NCBI GenBank assembly: GCA_000471045.1
Contig: KI301992.1
Location: 295,701-359,700 of the forward strand
DNA length: 64,000 bases
Source: an actinobacterium LLX17
Lineage (GTDB): Bacteria > Actinomycetota > Actinomycetes > Propionibacteriales > Nocardioidaceae
Direction: 5' to 3'
This document shows, in pieces, positions 45,698 through 63,434 of this stretch; position 1 is the stretch's first letter, and every line of letters starts with the position of its first letter. Both the position numbers and the translations under genes were made by a program. The notes under the pieces were generated by a model. It was not told the origin of the DNA, ran no database searches, and was given only the letters and a program-made list of their open reading frames with translations.

Positions 45698-45710
45698 GAC
45701 GACGCTCCTT

Positions 45711-45754
45711 CGCATCGTCTTGTCGCTGGCCGGGTACGACGCGCCTCGTCCGGG
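45711..45754 (-). promoter_or_regulatory. Guanidine-III riboswitch (ykkC-III-like)
   Basis: On the minus strand the RNA reads CCGGACGAGG...CGUACCCGG...GACAAGACG, the conserved landmarks of the class as I know it. GCGUCGU can pair with ACGAUGC just before the AAGGAG ribosome site of the SMR gene, so guanidine binding would act on translation. The match to the class consensus is by memory; no covariance search was run. Confidence 0.85.
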
Positions 45755-45785
45755 TGCCGGTGGCACCTCCGACGCTAGCAAGCCG

Positions 45786-57456: not shown

Positions 57457-58857
57457 TTGTTCATCATTCGCTCACGCCGCGCCCTCACGTGGGGCACGGC
57501 GGCCGCCACGACCTCCGTGCTGGCGCTCGCCGTCACGTCGGCCGCCTTCGCCGCGCCCACCCCTGAGGTCACCACGCCCAACATGCAGTGGATTGACATC
57601 TACGACGACCGGCCGACCATCGCGGACGTCCAGGCGACCTACCCGAACCTGCTCGGCACGGGAGTGGCTCTCGACTCGGGATGGACCGCGGACGCCTTCG
57701 ACGACGCCCTCCAGGCCTGGCAAGTCACCACGGCCGGCGGCGTCAACGAGGTCATCGACTGGACCCCGGGCACGCAGACCACCGCAAACGGGCTGTCGAC
57801 CTGGACGTACTCGGGCACGACACTGACGGCGGGTGTCGCGCTCGACGTCTCGCTCGAGATCCAGGGCAACACGGCCCGGTGGACCGTCACGCCCACGGCC
57901 GGCCCCGCAGACGCCATCGTCACGGCCAACGCCAACCTCGGATCCGATGGCGACGAGACCGTCGTGGAGGTCACCCCCGAGACCGCGGTCGTCACGTCGG
58001 ACGACGACGGTGTTGATCCCGTGCTGGGCTTCTCGATCGACGCCGCCGACGGCCTGATCGACGCCCAGCCCGGGGCCGGCGGGGTGGACTTCTCGTTCGC
58101 GACGGCACGGACGGCGACCATCGTGGCCGCACTGCAGGACTACGCGCCCTGTGCTGAGCAGGTCGCGATCGACGGGATGATCGGCCGCGTCGCCACCCTG
58201 CAGACCAACTTCGGCATCACGATCGAGGGTGCGCTCGACTGTGCGACGGTGGCCGCTCCGGCTGTGGCTACGCAGGGCACGGCGACCTCCCAGGTGCTGG
58301 CTGTCGGGATCGATCCTGCGGTCGACGCGGTCACGGACGGCACGAGCTCAAGCAACATCGACTTCGAGAGCGGTGAGGGCGCCTACCTGGAGTTCCCCGA
58401 CGTGGTCGAGTCCACCACCACGGGCCTGCCGGCGGGTCTCACGGCGACGTTCGACCCGTTGGCGCAGACGCTCACCCTGGCCGGCACGCCGACGCAGTCA
58501 GGTGTCTTCAACGCGACCCTGGTGCTCTATCGCACCGATGTGCTGGACTACTGGAACAGCGACCTCGGCGAAGGTGCGCCGGTCGTGGCTCGTTTCACCG
58601 TGACGGTGGCCCCGGTCCCGACCGACCCCGGGACGGGTGGTCCGGGTACGGGTGGTCCGGGTACGGGTGGGCCCGGCACCGGCGGCACCGGCACCGGCGG
58701 TGCCGGTGCGGGCCTGGGAAGCGGGACCGGCGTGGGCGTGAGTCGCTCGCTGCCCGAGATCGGGGCGGGCGACCTCCCGGCCGGCGTGATCGGTCTCGCG
58801 ATGCTCGCGGCAGGCGCTACCGCGGTGGCCGCGGGACGTCGGACCCGCCGGGCCTGA
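57457..58857 (+). CDS. Secreted surface protein with C-terminal sorting-like signal
   Basis: 466 residues. Sec signal peptide (TTSVLALAVTSAAFAAP), a long Thr/Ala/Val-rich beta region with a putative-Ig-like segment (GVFNATLVLYRTD), a PGTGG repeat linker, then LPEIG (about 432-436), a hydrophobic helix and RRTRRA. That is the cell-wall-sorting layout, though LPEIG departs from LPxTG. GGAG lies six bases before TTG 57457. Function not recognised; no sortase in the window. Confidence 0.78.
   Translation: MFIIRSRRALTWGTAAATTSVLALAVTSAAFAAPTPEVTTPNMQWIDIYDDRPTIADVQATYPNLLGTGVALDSGWTADAFDDALQAWQVTTAGGVNEVIDWTPGTQTTANGLSTWTYSGTTLTAGVALDVSLEIQGNTARWTVTPTAGPADAIVTANANLGSDGDETVVEVTPETAVVTSDDDGVDPVLGFSIDAADGLIDAQPGAGGVDFSFATARTATIVAALQDYAPCAEQVAIDGMIGRVATLQTNFGITIEGALDCATVAAPAVATQGTATSQVLAVGIDPAVDAVTDGTSSSNIDFESGEGAYLEFPDVVESTTTGLPAGLTATFDPLAQTLTLAGTPTQSGVFNATLVLYRTDVLDYWNSDLGEGAPVVARFTVTVAPVPTDPGTGGPGTGGPGTGGPGTGGTGTGGAGAGLGSGTGVGVSRSLPEIGAGDLPAGVIGLAMLAAGATAVAAGRRTRRA
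58630..58704 (+). repeat. Five 15-bp repeats coding the PGTGG linker
   Basis: Units at 58630, 58645, 58660, 58675 and 58690, the first three nearly identical (GGTACGGGTGGTCCG type), encode Gly-Thr-Gly-Gly-Pro. A wall-spanning spacer before the sorting-like signal. Confidence 0.85.
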
Positions 58858-58869
58858 CTCTCGTCGAGT

Positions 58870-58911
58870 CCGGGTGTCCTGGGCGGCCGTACGGCCGCCC
58901 AGGACACCCGG
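58870..58911. terminator. 42-base perfect palindrome, terminator
   Basis: 21-bp arms CCGGGTGTCCTGGGCGGCCG+T and its complement meet without a loop base. Just downstream of the secreted-protein gene and before the convergent marR gene. Confidence 0.8.
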
Positions 58912-58979
58912 GAGGGCGCACCAAGGTGCGCAAGCTCGAGATCACCGACGTCCTTGGCAGCAACCTCCCGCTCGCCTGA

Positions 58980-59060
58980 GCGGTCAGCCAGCAACCTTCT
59001 CGGCGTGGATGGGGTTGCTCACTGACCGCCCCGTGCGGGGATGAGTTGCAGGCTGACCGC
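58980..59060. repeat. 81-bp structured repeat element, copy A
   Basis: Three half-sites of a motif near GCGGTCAGCCAGCAACC: one forward at 58980, two reversed ending at 59029 and 59060. Forward and first reverse sites can form a 17-bp stem (15 matches); the second reverse site could pair instead. Same length and architecture as copy B at 61861-61941. Confidence 0.8.
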
Positions 59061-59064
59061 CGCG

Positions 59065-59565
59065 TCAGGTGCGGAAGGGACTTGTCAGGGTGCGCAGGGC
59101 CGCCACGAGGGACTCGGCCTCGGCGGGGGACAGCCCGGCCAGCAGCTCGGCCTCGCGGTCCATCAGCTCCGACAGCGCGCCGTCGACCCGTTCCCGGCCG
59201 GTCTCGGTGAGCCGCACCAGGACTCCGCGACGATCGCCCGGGTCGGGACGGCGCTCGACGAGACCGCGCCCCGCCAGCCGGTCGACGCGGTTGGTCATGG
59301 TGCCACTGGTCACAAGCGTCTCGCCCACGAGGCGTCCGGGGGACAGCTCGTAGGGTGCGCCCGAGCGACGCAGCGCGGCCAGCACGTCGAACTCCCACGA
59401 CTCCAGCGAGTGCGCGGTGAACGCCTCGCGGCGGGCGCGGTCGAGATGATGCGCGAGGCGCGAGACCCGGCTGAGCACGTGCATCGGCGCCACGTCGACG
59501 TCGGGCCGCTCGCGACGCCAGGCCTCGACGATGAGGTCGACCTCATCAGGACCGGTTGTGCTCAT
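59065..59565 (-). CDS. MarR-family regulator
   Basis: 166 residues. Winged helix LVTSGTMTNRVDRLAGRGLVERRPDPGDRRGVLVRLTETG (landmark SGTMTNRVDRLAGRGLV) is typical MarR. ATG 59565 is preferred over an upstream ATG. Divergent from an intact amidase gene; two palindromes lie between. Confidence 0.92.
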   Translation of the reverse strand: MSTTGPDEVDLIVEAWRRERPDVDVAPMHVLSRVSRLAHHLDRARREAFTAHSLESWEFDVLAALRRSGAPYELSPGRLVGETLVTSGTMTNRVDRLAGRGLVERRPDPGDRRGVLVRLTETGRERVDGALSELMDREAELLAGLSPAEAESLVAALRTLTSPFRT

Positions 59566-59582
59566 GGCCTGACGATAGACGG

Positions 59583-59617
59583 TCAAGAATCTTGATGTAG
59601 AGAGACTTTCGTCTCTC
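59583..59617. promoter_or_regulatory. MarR operator region
   Basis: TCAAG-AAT-CTTGA (59583-59595) is the usual MarR palindrome, and GAGAGAC-TTTC-GTCTCTC (59600-59617) is a second perfect 7-4-7 repeat. They sit between divergent marR and the amidase gene (ATG 59642). Confidence 0.78.
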
Positions 59618-59641
59618 CGCCCGGGCGCGTAGGTTCACGTC

Positions 59642-60979
59642 ATGGATGCCACCGACGCCGTCGCCGCGGGTGCGGCCCGCCAGTCCGCCCTCCTCGCCGC
59701 AGGGGAGATCACCAGCCGCCGGCTGGTCGAGGCCACGCTCGTCGCCGTCGGGAAGGCCGATGCGCAGCTCAACGCCGTGGTCGCGACCTACGCCGATCAG
59801 GCGCTCGCGGCGGCCGACGAGGCTGACCGACGTCGGGCGGCCGGTGACGCTGGTCCGCTGACCGGTGTGCCGATCGCGGTGAAGGACGACCTCGCCATGG
59901 CGGGGGAGGTGACCGGGTGGGGCAGCCGGGCCCAGGTGCGGCCAGCGTCCATCGACGCCGACCTCGTGGCGACCCTCCGAGCCGCGGGCATGGTGCCGCT
60001 CGCCAAGACGACGTTGCCGGAGCTGGCGATCTGCGGCTTCACCGAGACCGAGGCGCACGGCATCACCCGTAACCCGGTCGACCCGTCCCGGACGCCCGGC
60101 GGATCGTCGGGTGGATCGGCGGCCCTCGTGGGCGCCGGCGCGATCGGCATCGCCACCGCGTCGGACGGCGCCGGGTCCATCCGCATTCCGGCCGCGTGCT
60201 GCGGCCTGGTCGGCTTCAAGCCCACCCACGGGCACGTGCCGAGCAGCGGCTCCTGGCACGGCATGTCCACCCAGGGGTGTGTCACGCCGACCCTGGCCGA
60301 CTCGGCCTTGTTCCTCGACACGATCGGCTCGTTCGACGACTCGCTGACGGACGCGCTCGATCGCGACCCCGGAACGCTGCGGATCGGACTCTCCACCAGC
60401 GGCTCGGCGGCCACCCGGCCGGAGCGACTCGACCCGCAGGTGCGAGCGGCTCTCGACCGCGCCGCGGGCGTCCTCGCCGTGGCGGGACACGAGGTCAGCG
60501 AGGTGGCGGTGCCGTACGGCGTCGACGCGAAGTCGCTGATCGTGCGGTACCTGCGGGGCATCCGCGACAGCGCCCGGAGCGTCGACGAGCCGGAGCGACT
60601 GGAGGCCCGCACGAAGCGCATCGCCCGTCTCGGCGCCCCGTTCGGCCGGCGGGCCCTCGGCTGGTCGATCCGGCAGGGCGAGCAGTTCGGCACCTCGGTG
60701 CACGACCGTCTGGGGGTCGACGTGCTGCTGATGCCGGTCATGTCCGGTCCGCCGATCCCCGTCGGCCACTGGCGCCGCAAGCGGGGGCTGAGCCTCGTGC
60801 TGGCGATGAACGCGTTCTACGCCTACACCGCGCAGTGGAACCACGCCGGCGTCCCCGCGGTCTCGCTGCCGGCCGGCACGACTCCGGACGGACTGCCGCT
60901 CGCGGTCCAGCTGGTCGGTCGACGCGGCCGCGACGCCGAGCTGATGTCGCTCGCCGCTCAGCTCGAGGGCCGGTTGTGA
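59642..60979 (+). CDS. Amidase (amidase-signature family)
   Basis: 445 residues with an intact triad: Lys81 (PIAVKDDLAM), cis-Ser156 (TPGGSSGGSAA) and nucleophile Ser179 (DGAGSIRIPAA). C-terminal half has WNHAGVPAVSLPAG. Hydrolyses an amide or carbamoyl substrate; which one is unknown. ATG 59642. Stop overlaps the tam start. Contrast with the triad-less paralogue at 53036. Confidence 0.93.
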   Translation: MDATDAVAAGAARQSALLAAGEITSRRLVEATLVAVGKADAQLNAVVATYADQALAAADEADRRRAAGDAGPLTGVPIAVKDDLAMAGEVTGWGSRAQVRPASIDADLVATLRAAGMVPLAKTTLPELAICGFTETEAHGITRNPVDPSRTPGGSSGGSAALVGAGAIGIATASDGAGSIRIPAACCGLVGFKPTHGHVPSSGSWHGMSTQGCVTPTLADSALFLDTIGSFDDSLTDALDRDPGTLRIGLSTSGSAATRPERLDPQVRAALDRAAGVLAVAGHEVSEVAVPYGVDAKSLIVRYLRGIRDSARSVDEPERLEARTKRIARLGAPFGRRALGWSIRQGEQFGTSVHDRLGVDVLLMPVMSGPPIPVGHWRRKRGLSLVLAMNAFYAYTAQWNHAGVPAVSLPAGTTPDGLPLAVQLVGRRGRDAELMSLAAQLEGRL

Positions 60980-61743
60980 CCGCTGGCCCCGGCTGGGACC
61001 CGAACGTCTACCTGCGGCACGCCTCCGACCGATCTCGTCCGTTCGTCGACCTCCTCGCCCGGGTGCCGGGGGAGCCGCGCTCGATCATCGACCTCGGGTG
61101 CGGTCCCGGCCATCTCACCGACGTGCTGCTGGCGCGGTGGCCCGATGCGACCGTGCACGGTGTCGACTCCTCGGCCGAGATGATCGAGGCCGCCCGCGCC
61201 CGCGCCGATGGCGCGACGTACGAGCACGCCGACGTGGTCACCTGGACGCCCTCGCGAGCGGTCGACCTCATCGTGTCGAACGCACTGTTCCAGTGGGTGC
61301 CGGAACGCGCCGAGGTGATTCGCCGGCTGACCGACTCGGTGTCGCCCGGCGGGGCCTTCGCGCTGCAGGTGCCGGACAACGCCGACGCGCCCAGTCATCG
61401 GCTGCTGCGCGAGCTGGCGGCGCGAGAGCCGTACGCACCGCACACCGCGAGCGCGCAGCACGTGCCGCCGGGGCCGCCGGAGGAGTACCTCGACCTCTTC
61501 GCCGGGCTGGGGTGGACGGTCGACGCGTGGTCGACGACCTACCTGCACGTGCTGCCGGGCGAGGACCCGGTGTGGAGCTGGGTCTCCGGCACCGGCGCCC
61601 GGCCCGTGCTGCAGTCGTTGCCGGACCACCTGCGCGAGCGCTTCGTCGCCGAGTACCAGGCGGCCTTGCGCGAGGCCTACCCCTCGCGGCCGTACGGCAC
61701 GGTCCTGCCCTTCCGACGCACCTTCGCCGTCGCCCAGCGGTAG
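60976..61743 (+). CDS. tam: Trans-aconitate 2-methyltransferase
   Basis: 255 residues, SAM methyltransferase: WDPNVYLRHASDRSRPFVDLL, motif I IIDLGCGPGHLTDVL, SNALFQWVPE, and C-terminal LPFRRTFAVA. Methylates trans-aconitate, which inhibits the TCA cycle. GTG overlaps the amidase stop. Confidence 0.92.
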   Translation: MTAGPGWDPNVYLRHASDRSRPFVDLLARVPGEPRSIIDLGCGPGHLTDVLLARWPDATVHGVDSSAEMIEAARARADGATYEHADVVTWTPSRAVDLIVSNALFQWVPERAEVIRRLTDSVSPGGAFALQVPDNADAPSHRLLRELAAREPYAPHTASAQHVPPGPPEEYLDLFAGLGWTVDAWSTTYLHVLPGEDPVWSWVSGTGARPVLQSLPDHLRERFVAEYQAALREAYPSRPYGTVLPFRRTFAVAQR

Positions 61744-61756
61744 CCTTGTGCCGCGA

Positions 61757-61838
61757 TCCCCGGTTGGTCTGCCGGCAGGGCCCGCCTGACTTTGAATCAG
61801 GACAAGCGACGCAGGTTCGACTCCTGCCCGGGGAGCCA
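61757..61838 (+). tRNA. tRNA-Gln (TTG), atypical arms
   Basis: Acceptor TCCCCGG/CCGGGGA, anticodon arm CCTGA-CTTTGAA-TCAGG (anticodon TTG), T-arm GCAGG-TTCGACT-CCTGC, encoded CCA at 61836-61838. 79 nt before CCA because of a long D region and a 9-nt variable region. Position upstream of glmU agrees with actinobacterial tRNA-Gln. Confidence 0.85.
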
Positions 61839-61860
61839 CGTGCGATGTCAGCCACTCTGG

Positions 61861-61941
61861 GCGGTCAGCGCGCAACCCTTCCCCGCTCGGAAAGGTTGCG
61901 GACACACCGCCCCGCCGCCGGAAGGGTTGCTGGCTCACCGC
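61861..61941. repeat. 81-bp structured repeat element, copy B
   Basis: Half-sites forward at 61861-61882, reversed at 61889-61910 and 61920-61941; forward versus last reversed match in 19 of 22. Exactly the same length as copy A and about 54 of 81 bases identical, the identities lying mostly in the half-sites. Confidence 0.8.
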
Positions 61942-62003
61942 TCCTGGTGGGCCCCGGGACGCCGTAAGGTGTCAGGGTTCGCCCCGCCACCTCGAGGAGA
62001 CAC

Positions 62004-63434
62004 GTGAGCACCCAGGTCACCGCGGTCGTGCTGGCCGCCGGCGCCGGCACCCGCATGCGGTCGTCCCGCGCGAAGGTCCTGCACGAGATCGGCGGACGCA
62101 GCCTCGTGGCGCACGCCCTCGGTGCGGTCCGCGAGGTCGGAGCCGAGGTCCGCGTCGCCGTGGTGGGTCACGACCGCGAGGCCGTGTCGGCCGCCGTCAC
62201 CGAGACCGATCCCGATGCCGTGCAGGTCGTGCAGGAGGAGCAGCGCGGCACGGGTCACGCCGTCCAGGTGGCGCTGCAAGGTCTGCCTCAGGCGCCCGTC
62301 GGCACCGTGCTGATCACCTACGGCGACGTGCCGCTGCTCGACGCCCCCACGCTGGCGGGCTTCCTGGCCGATCACCATGAGGCCTCCCGCGCGGTGACGA
62401 TCCTGACGGCTCGGGTCGGCGATCCCACCGGCTACGGCCGCATCGTGCGCGACGAGTCCGGCGCGGTGCAAGCGATCCGCGAGCACCGCGACGCCTCCGA
62501 CGAGGAGCGCCGCATCCCGGAGATCAACAGCGGGGTGCTCGCGGTCGAGGCCGAGTTCCTGGCGCGGGCGCTCGCCGGCCTGCGGTCCGACAACGACCAG
62601 GGCGAGCTGTACCTGACCGACGTCGTGGCCCGCGCCGTCGCCGACGGCCTGCCGGTCGGAGCTCACGTGCTCGAGGACGTCTGGCAGACCGAGGGCGTCA
62701 ACGATCGCGCCCAGCTGGCGCGCCTGGGCCGCGAGCTGAACCGCCGCATCGTCGACCGCTGGATGCGTGAGGGCGTCACGGTCGTCGACCCCGAGACGAC
62801 GTGGATCGACTCCGCCGTCGAGCTCGCCCCTGACGTCACCCTCCTGCCCGGCATCCAGCTGCTCGGCGCCACGAGCGTGGCCACCGGCGCGACGATCGGC
62901 CCCGACACCACGCTGCGCAACGTCGAGGTGCACGCCGGTGCCCAGGTGGTGCGCACGCACGGGTCCGACGCAGTCGTCGGCGTCGGCGCCACCGTCGGCC
63001 CCTTCGCGTACCTGCGTCCCGGCACGGTCCTCGACACCGAGGCCAAGGTCGGCACCTTCGTCGAGACCAAGAACTCCCACGTCGGCGCCGGTGCCAAGGT
63101 GCCGCACCTCAGCTACATCGGCGACGCCGAGATCGGCGACGGGTCAAACATCGGCGCAGGCACCATCACCGCCAACTACGACGGCGTCGCCAAGCACCGC
63201 ACGACGGTCGGCAAGCACGCCCGCACCGGCTCCGACAACGTCTTCGTCGCACCGGTCACGATCGGTGACGGCGCCTACACTGCCGCGGGTACCACAGTGC
63301 GCGACGACGTCCCGCCGGGGGCGCTGGCGATCGGCGAAGGTCGTCAGAGGACCATGGAGGGGTGGGTCGAGTCGAAGCGACCCGGTACCTCGGCCGCCGA
63401 GGCAGCACGTCGAGCACGGGAGAACCAGCAGTGA
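62004..63434 (+). CDS. glmU: Bifunctional GlmU (acetyltransferase/uridyltransferase)
   Basis: 476 residues. N-terminal uridyltransferase: VVLAAGAGTRMRSSRAKVL, ITYGDVPLLD; C-terminal left-handed beta-helix acetyltransferase with hexapeptides and SYIGDAEIGDGSNIGAG, NYDGVAKHRTTVG. Makes UDP-GlcNAc. GTG 62004 behind GAGGAG. Stop overlaps prs. Confidence 0.97.
   Translation: MSTQVTAVVLAAGAGTRMRSSRAKVLHEIGGRSLVAHALGAVREVGAEVRVAVVGHDREAVSAAVTETDPDAVQVVQEEQRGTGHAVQVALQGLPQAPVGTVLITYGDVPLLDAPTLAGFLADHHEASRAVTILTARVGDPTGYGRIVRDESGAVQAIREHRDASDEERRIPEINSGVLAVEAEFLARALAGLRSDNDQGELYLTDVVARAVADGLPVGAHVLEDVWQTEGVNDRAQLARLGRELNRRIVDRWMREGVTVVDPETTWIDSAVELAPDVTLLPGIQLLGATSVATGATIGPDTTLRNVEVHAGAQVVRTHGSDAVVGVGATVGPFAYLRPGTVLDTEAKVGTFVETKNSHVGAGAKVPHLSYIGDAEIGDGSNIGAGTITANYDGVAKHRTTVGKHARTGSDNVFVAPVTIGDGAYTAAGTTVRDDVPPGALAIGEGRQRTMEGWVESKRPGTSAAEAARRARENQQ

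Follow-up and report, generated by a model that had tools for sequence, protein, structure and literature searches.

In the 64,000-nucleotide stretch of Nocardioidaceae DNA analyzed here (the window: actinobacterium LLX17, contig KI301992.1, positions 295,701 to 359,700), two 81-bp arrays of 17-bp half-sites, copies A and B, lie 2.9 kb apart around a MarR-family gene adjoining copy A (59065-59586, minus strand), an amidase gene, a tam-like gene, and tRNA-Gln(ttg) (61757-61838), with glmU beyond copy B. The tam-like gene is trans-aconitate methyltransferase-like, its top NCBIfam match reaching 296.8 bits, under the 320-bit cut-off of that family. The original prediction, made from the sequence of the window, had described two elements of this length with half-sites in the order forward, reverse, reverse, and had placed copy A between convergent genes and copy B between tRNA-Gln and glmU; both the elements and their placement between predicted genes were borne out. 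The half-sites (F, forward; R, reverse) begin at offsets 0, 33, and 64 in both copies, an arrangement written below as F33R31R.

58980..59060, plus strand: copy A, array F33R31R, 81 bp
58980..58996, plus strand: copy A site 1 (F), GCGGTCAGCCAGCAACC, matrix score 27.9
59013..59029, minus strand: copy A site 2 (R)
59044..59060, minus strand: copy A site 3 (R), 31 bp beyond site 2
61861..61941, plus strand: copy B, array F33R31R, 81 bp
61861..61877, plus strand: copy B site 1 (F)
61894..61910, minus strand: copy B site 2 (R), the weakest site of copy B
61925..61941, minus strand: copy B site 3 (R), 31 bp beyond site 2
58869..58912, plus strand: a separate 20-bp perfect hairpin, a neighbor outside the array and candidate terminator of the upstream gene

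The predicted match of about two-thirds of the bases, concentrated in the half-sites, likewise held: without gaps, the copies are identical at 54 of 81 positions, 42/51 in half-sites versus 12/30 in spacers, and the best of 10,000 shuffles of copy B reached an identity of 38 to copy A. The bracketing of marR, amidase, tam, and tRNA-Gln is correct as to position but looks incidental, because such an array was seen, reading by eye, in the tRNA-Gln/glmU gap of none of 13 other species. Several other species carry different palindromes in that gap (L111, L104, and L085). Inspection by eye suggested one more half-site, a fourth, lying 31 bp upstream of copy A; it received no positive score and is not claimed.

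Copies A and B are not alone in their genome (G000; 3.0 Mb, one contig). A BLAST search with copy A returned 16 matches there, and a half-site scan combined with a weight matrix yielded a total of 14 arrays containing 15 F-R cores. The paired pattern had 11 exact matches versus 0 in a reversed control; lone half-sites at up to three mismatches (69 versus 41 in the control) are often due to chance. By position in G000, the arrays are as follows.

F33R31R: A, B, and 997878
F41F33R: 647101 and 970631
F33R41R: 971729
F31F34R: 419317
F31F33R: 2657987
F41F33R31R, the last site degenerate: 2109143
Two F33R units 49 bp apart: 252607
F33R alone: 1385231, 1768308, 2173434, and 2991193

The wider search of related Nocardioidaceae that the original prediction had proposed was also run. 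A model built from 18 cores of three species (R1) matched 21 of 49 genomes of the genus at E≤0.01, some of them weakly, and 69 of 341 genomes of the family at E≤1e-4, which fall into 3 of 26 genera; at the level of the class, 12 of 394 genomes matched, every one in the same family. Scanning 84,980 species genomes for the pattern gave 34 stretches, whose titles name Nocardioides, Aeromicrobium, or an unplaced Actinomycetes metagenome-assembled genome. As far as searched, the array family thus appears confined to Nocardioidaceae. The half-site varies, which makes these counts minimum values for the system as a whole.

Each 17-bp site combines a 5' block, GCGGTSAG, with a 3' block (GCAACC here) that differs between paralogous systems. 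Sites lie about three, four, five, or six helical turns apart irrespective of orientation. Raw spacings are 30-32 or 40-42 for F-F or R-R pairs, 32-35 or 43/44 (once 41) for F-R pairs, and 28/29, 38-41, or 47-50 for R-F pairs, with single cases from 61 up. Base 10 of the 17 was taken as the site center because spacings then agree across orientations, although the 10-bp steps do not depend on that choice. When both sites were required to score at least 12, there were 347 center-to-center spacings below 75 bp: 235 at 30-33, 101 at 39-43, 1 at 51, 8 at 62-63, 1 at 66, and 1 at 73, so that 345/347 fell into the phase groups; sites scoring below 12, in G227 and G228, add center spacings of 49 (once) and 52 (three times). 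Among 71 classes of genome, orientation, and spacing, the 30 lying outside 30-33 keep the phase of 31.4: the mean cosine for 10.4 bp is 0.76, and p against 100,000 uniform draws lies at the floor of 1e-5; vector length alone gives a broad peak near 11. When offsets 20-74 to either side of every G000 core were scanned, outer sites appeared at 31, 41, and 51 only. The step of roughly 10 bp recurs in F-F, R-R, F-R, and R-F pairs and across different genera, and common descent accounts for part of the regularity. Whole-turn spacing in any orientation points to a protein that occupies one face of double-stranded DNA.

From their genomic neighborhoods, the arrays are genetically linked to a nuclease-like gene. 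In G000, two arrays bracket this gene between thrS-like and HIT-family genes; an array-gene-array block occupies the same place in G032 and G030, is found beside thrS in G014, and lies elsewhere in G010 and G040. Among the 30 best thrS loci, 28 were of sufficient length to judge, and four of these (G000, G032, G030, and G014) had at least two sites after thrS, with one weak site each in G004 and G038. Searches with tblastn revealed homologues adjoining arrays in G199, G263, G220, G247, and N. soli as well, and five loci with extended flanks (G199, G263, G220, G247, and G014) all had sites on both sides. At E≤1e-20, a profile built from 8 array-flanked proteins matched 192 of the 341 genomes of the family. 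All of the top 30 homologue loci had array sites within 400 bp, 22 of them on both sides; with the 8 profile members removed, the figures were 22/22 and 14/22, compared with 4/106 and 0/106 for control flanks. At 38 of 40 further loci, the left and right flanks resembled each other more closely than in any of 60 shuffles (9/76 and 6/110 for controls). Many of these loci keep the phased geometry but carry a different 3' block, as in GCGGTGAGTTAGGGCCC (31, 31, 34) of G023. The window's own genome holds a second nuclease paralogue with an open frame (L365, G000:C1:2845920-2846858), flanked by its own array type, GCGGTGAGTTAGTGGCC (31, 34, 31).

The N-terminal half of the encoded protein matches AbiEi and is predicted to hold an AbiEi-like winged helix, and the C-terminal half matches EDxHD/Vsr-like nucleases, whose fold is predicted for the catalytic domain. 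E187, D218, H235, and D245 are invariant in 46 sequences and would form the catalytic site. We regard this two-domain protein as a predicted DNA-cutting nuclease. Neither Pfam nor NCBIfam names it, a sequence search of solved structures returned nothing convincing, and Foldseek alone gave no match at E≤0.001. The searches made of open-access papers turned up no description of such arrays or of a connection between them and an AbiEi/EDxHD-like protein, and none of the three full 17-mers occurs among the matches listed.

Paralogues associated with other 3' blocks suggest how the site may be read. The 3' block was taken from DNA alone at 64 of 70 homologue loci, leaving out L378, L382, L397, L400, L404 (in-frame stop), and L403 (flank signal absent); 59 of the 64 passed a filter of at least three sites and a spacing from a set list. 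The correlation of protein identity with block distance was strongest in residues 11-45 (r of -0.38 and -0.40 for windows from residues 11 and 21), other windows giving -0.05 to -0.25. Given the rest of the protein, the helix segment retained r of -0.286 (p 0.0005), whereas the rest given the helix retained -0.093 (p 0.11). Two residue-base couplings stood out, the next best having a z of 9.0. Residue 32 goes with block base 3 (Q with A in 17/18, E with C in 14/14, R with G in 14/16, and D/N with C in 6/6; z 22.7), and residue 29 goes with base 4 (R with A in 38/38, K with T in 8/11, and H with G in 4/5; z 21.7). A tree that omits the first 50 residues places 18 and 14 changes on the block bases. 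Among nearest disjoint pairs, base 4 is different in 10/12 cases if residue 29 differs and in 1/17 if it is the same; for base 3 and residue 32, the corresponding values are 7/14 and 1/15. These data suggest a code in which Q, E, or R at position 32 specifies A, C, or G and R, K, or H at position 29 specifies A, T, or G, so that natural variation among paralogues would indicate which residue reads which base.

Taking these observations together, we consider it likely that copies A and B belong, as solitary arrays, to a dispersed family of phased arrays that serve as binding, and possibly cutting, targets of the predicted two-domain nuclease encoded between two such arrays. In this scenario, the winged helix would read the 3' block, a dimer would occupy each F-R pair (50 bp), and every further site would bring another copy of the protein to that face of the helix. 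Cutting by the nuclease, followed by host repair, might then carry arrays to new places, mostly the 3' ends of genes, whether or not the gene moves along. That the protein binds and cuts the sites, that arrays move, and that the host makes any use of them at gene ends are inferences. The array-gene-array unit of the A/B type in G000 is frameshifted; A and B are thus probably relics, or else sites retained for some other use. The broader proposal, which we hold with slightly more confidence than doubt, is that they represent a new class of selfish repeat-nuclease element, wherein an AbiEi-EDxHD nuclease is carried between arrays of its own target, reads the 3' block via a short helix code (32 Q/E/R to A/C/G, 29 R/K/H to A/T/G) at sites three or four turns apart, and seeds arrays genome-wide at gene ends, each paralogue having a private motif.

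Several observations weigh against this explanation. The frameshift splits the very gene flanked by A/B-type arrays in G000, and the G220 gene also looks broken. The G000 gene carries H29, for which the code gives G, yet its arrays have A at base 4. Of the 14 nearest pairs with unlike residues at position 32, 7 have the same base 3, and the tree check is the only control for relatedness applied to the couplings. The shared 5' end arises partly by construction, because the block scan required a GCGGT-like start. By hand count at E≤1e-20, a homologue is present in 53 of the 69 array-positive genomes and missing in 16, and it is present in 139 of 272 array-negative ones. Distant paralogues L398 (G376) and L399 (G099) are flanked on both sides by a single long palindrome rather than by phased sites, and same-orientation sites are spaced 29 at two paralogue loci, L392 and L393. 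Finally, no target duplication was resolved, the tRNA-Gln/glmU flanks without an array being too diverged to show one.

The protein could instead resemble AbiEi in regulating its own gene, in which case the arrays would serve as its operators without any part in mobility. The match of its N-terminal half to AbiEi would fit, and there is a precedent in Streptococcus agalactiae, whose AbiEi binds cooperatively to inverted repeats in its own promoter (PMC7319586). However, arrays stand on both sides of the gene at 22 of 30 loci, many array loci lack the gene and lie mostly at gene 3' ends, and the C-terminal half matches nucleases, all of which makes this explanation unlikely.

The distribution of arrays relative to genes bears on another possibility, in which a host protein, such as gyrase or a nucleoid protein, docks on them at gene 3' ends and the nuclease is merely resident among them. 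Such a role would resemble that of BIME-2 (BIME, bacterial interspersed mosaic element) in Escherichia coli, for which gyrase binding is described in PMC6379681. The 93 placed arrays comprise 51 in convergent, 35 in tandem, and 7 in divergent gaps and 0 within genes, compared with 12, 37, and 33 for other gaps of at least 50 bp at the same loci (Fisher, 2e-8 and 2e-7); the count omits 3 of 96 arrays, at edges, and its simple codon-score gene finder misses some genes. At ten orthologous pairs, sites are better conserved (491/542) than spacers (246/354) or flanks (730/1137), with some bias toward conserved sites remaining because the loci were found by motif. This enrichment and conservation would suit host docking, but the 3' block changes along with the helix encoded by the neighboring gene and differs between paralogues. 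Moreover, the confinement of arrays to one family, at 12 of 394 class genomes, fits poorly with a universal enzyme such as gyrase. We regard host docking as quite unlikely.

A structured RNA, either a bidirectional terminator or a fold switch, is far less probable again. The original prediction had the forward arm pairing with either reverse arm, so that an RNA could change folds. In line with this, the arrays are located at gene ends, and three further signals favor an RNA: copies A and B are each more stably folded than shuffled sequences (z -3.6 to -4.9), an 18-sequence, three-species alignment shows covariation of 0.178 versus 0.134 in column shuffles (0/500), and in G000 alone pairing is better within elements (z 1.65, p 0.07). 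For 159 distinct F-R units from 14 genomes, however, pairing within elements was 14.87 of 17 versus 15.10 when F and R of different elements from the same genome were permuted (z -4.2). This lower complementarity within than between elements disfavors an RNA switch. The strongest deficit falls on the center base (0.352 within elements versus 0.495 permuted): inverted neighbors avoid an identical center (F-R, 38 versus 60.1 expected; R-F, 5 versus 18.8), and same-orientation neighbors share it (23 versus 16.1). There may still be a hairpin with an obligatory central mismatch. Neighboring sites in F-F and R-R order form no hairpin, yet their spacings show the 10-bp steps as well. Rfam gave no match to the copies in the window at gathering score, nor to six array loci at E≤0.1, and a scan of 58700-62100, which covers the T-run type only, found no terminator hairpin at either copy. 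The perfect hairpin at 58869-58912, just 3' of the gene ending at 58857 (60-nt stretch, -52.8 kcal/mol, z -8.6), already stands 3' of copy A's upstream gene. Of the roles initially offered, a mobile miniature element and a protein site are supported together, and a fold-switching RNA or terminator is not favored. Elsewhere in the window, a guanidine-III riboswitch aptamer lies at 45709-45769 on the minus strand (60.4 bits).

Chance similarity or one segmental duplication, the latter raised in the original prediction and suggested by the 2.9-kb distance between copies, has next to no probability, since G000 holds 14 arrays, relatives occur in 69 of 341 family genomes, and the spacers of A and B differ (12/30 identical).

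The phased arrays and their predicted nuclease invite comparison with several known systems. Repetitive extragenic palindromic (REP) sequences and BIMEs are described in PMC2817692 and PMC3733652 as short extragenic palindromic units, single to arrays, in alternating orientation and with a dedicated gene, all features found here as well. As in REPtrons, repeats flank the dedicated gene (on both sides at 22 of 30 loci), but the gene is of another kind: the REP-associated tyrosine transposase (RAYT) is a Y1 HuH transposase, whereas the present gene is AbiEi/EDxHD-like and its sites are phased by helical turns. No Y1 (PF01797) transposase was found in the 49 genus genomes (control rings, 5/14), on which ground RAYT-driven repeats were rejected, and inspection of the 15 G000 cores by eye showed no GTAG/CGTC tag at one end. 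Short noncoding repeats at lineage-specific places recall miniature inverted-repeat transposable elements (MITEs), and in a sister clade the arrays have outer inverted repeats in addition; the outer repeat GGACAAGCGGCCACGGACC, however, has 40 matches in G032 and 0 in G000, and target duplication was not resolved. In G032, G030, and G002 loci (for example, L271, L142, and L150), GGACAAGCGGCCACGGACC caps arrays about 31-36 bp out, its distance from the sites varying over 28-36 bp in all, and it also caps unrelated inner repeats (L276 and L290), so the elements are mosaic. Being limited to the sister clade, variable in distance, and present around unrelated repeats, it was rejected as part of the G000 element.

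With respect to the protein, the EDxHD homing endonuclease I-Bth0305I differs in that the present gene lies among repeats, has many genomic sites, and carries an AbiEi-like N-terminal half, and no intron or intein was noticed, although no search aimed at one was made; AbiEi antitoxins differ from it in lacking the nuclease-like C-terminal half, and the arrays here are dispersed. The system would supply naturally retargeted site-specific DNA-binding proteins, and it raises the questions of what drives the spread of interspersed repeats in bacteria that lack RAYTs, how target choice changes in a small winged-helix nuclease, and what purpose helical phasing of the sites serves. Dispersed palindromic repeats have been known in association with HuH (RAYT) transposases; here, they are tied genetically to an unrelated predicted nuclease.
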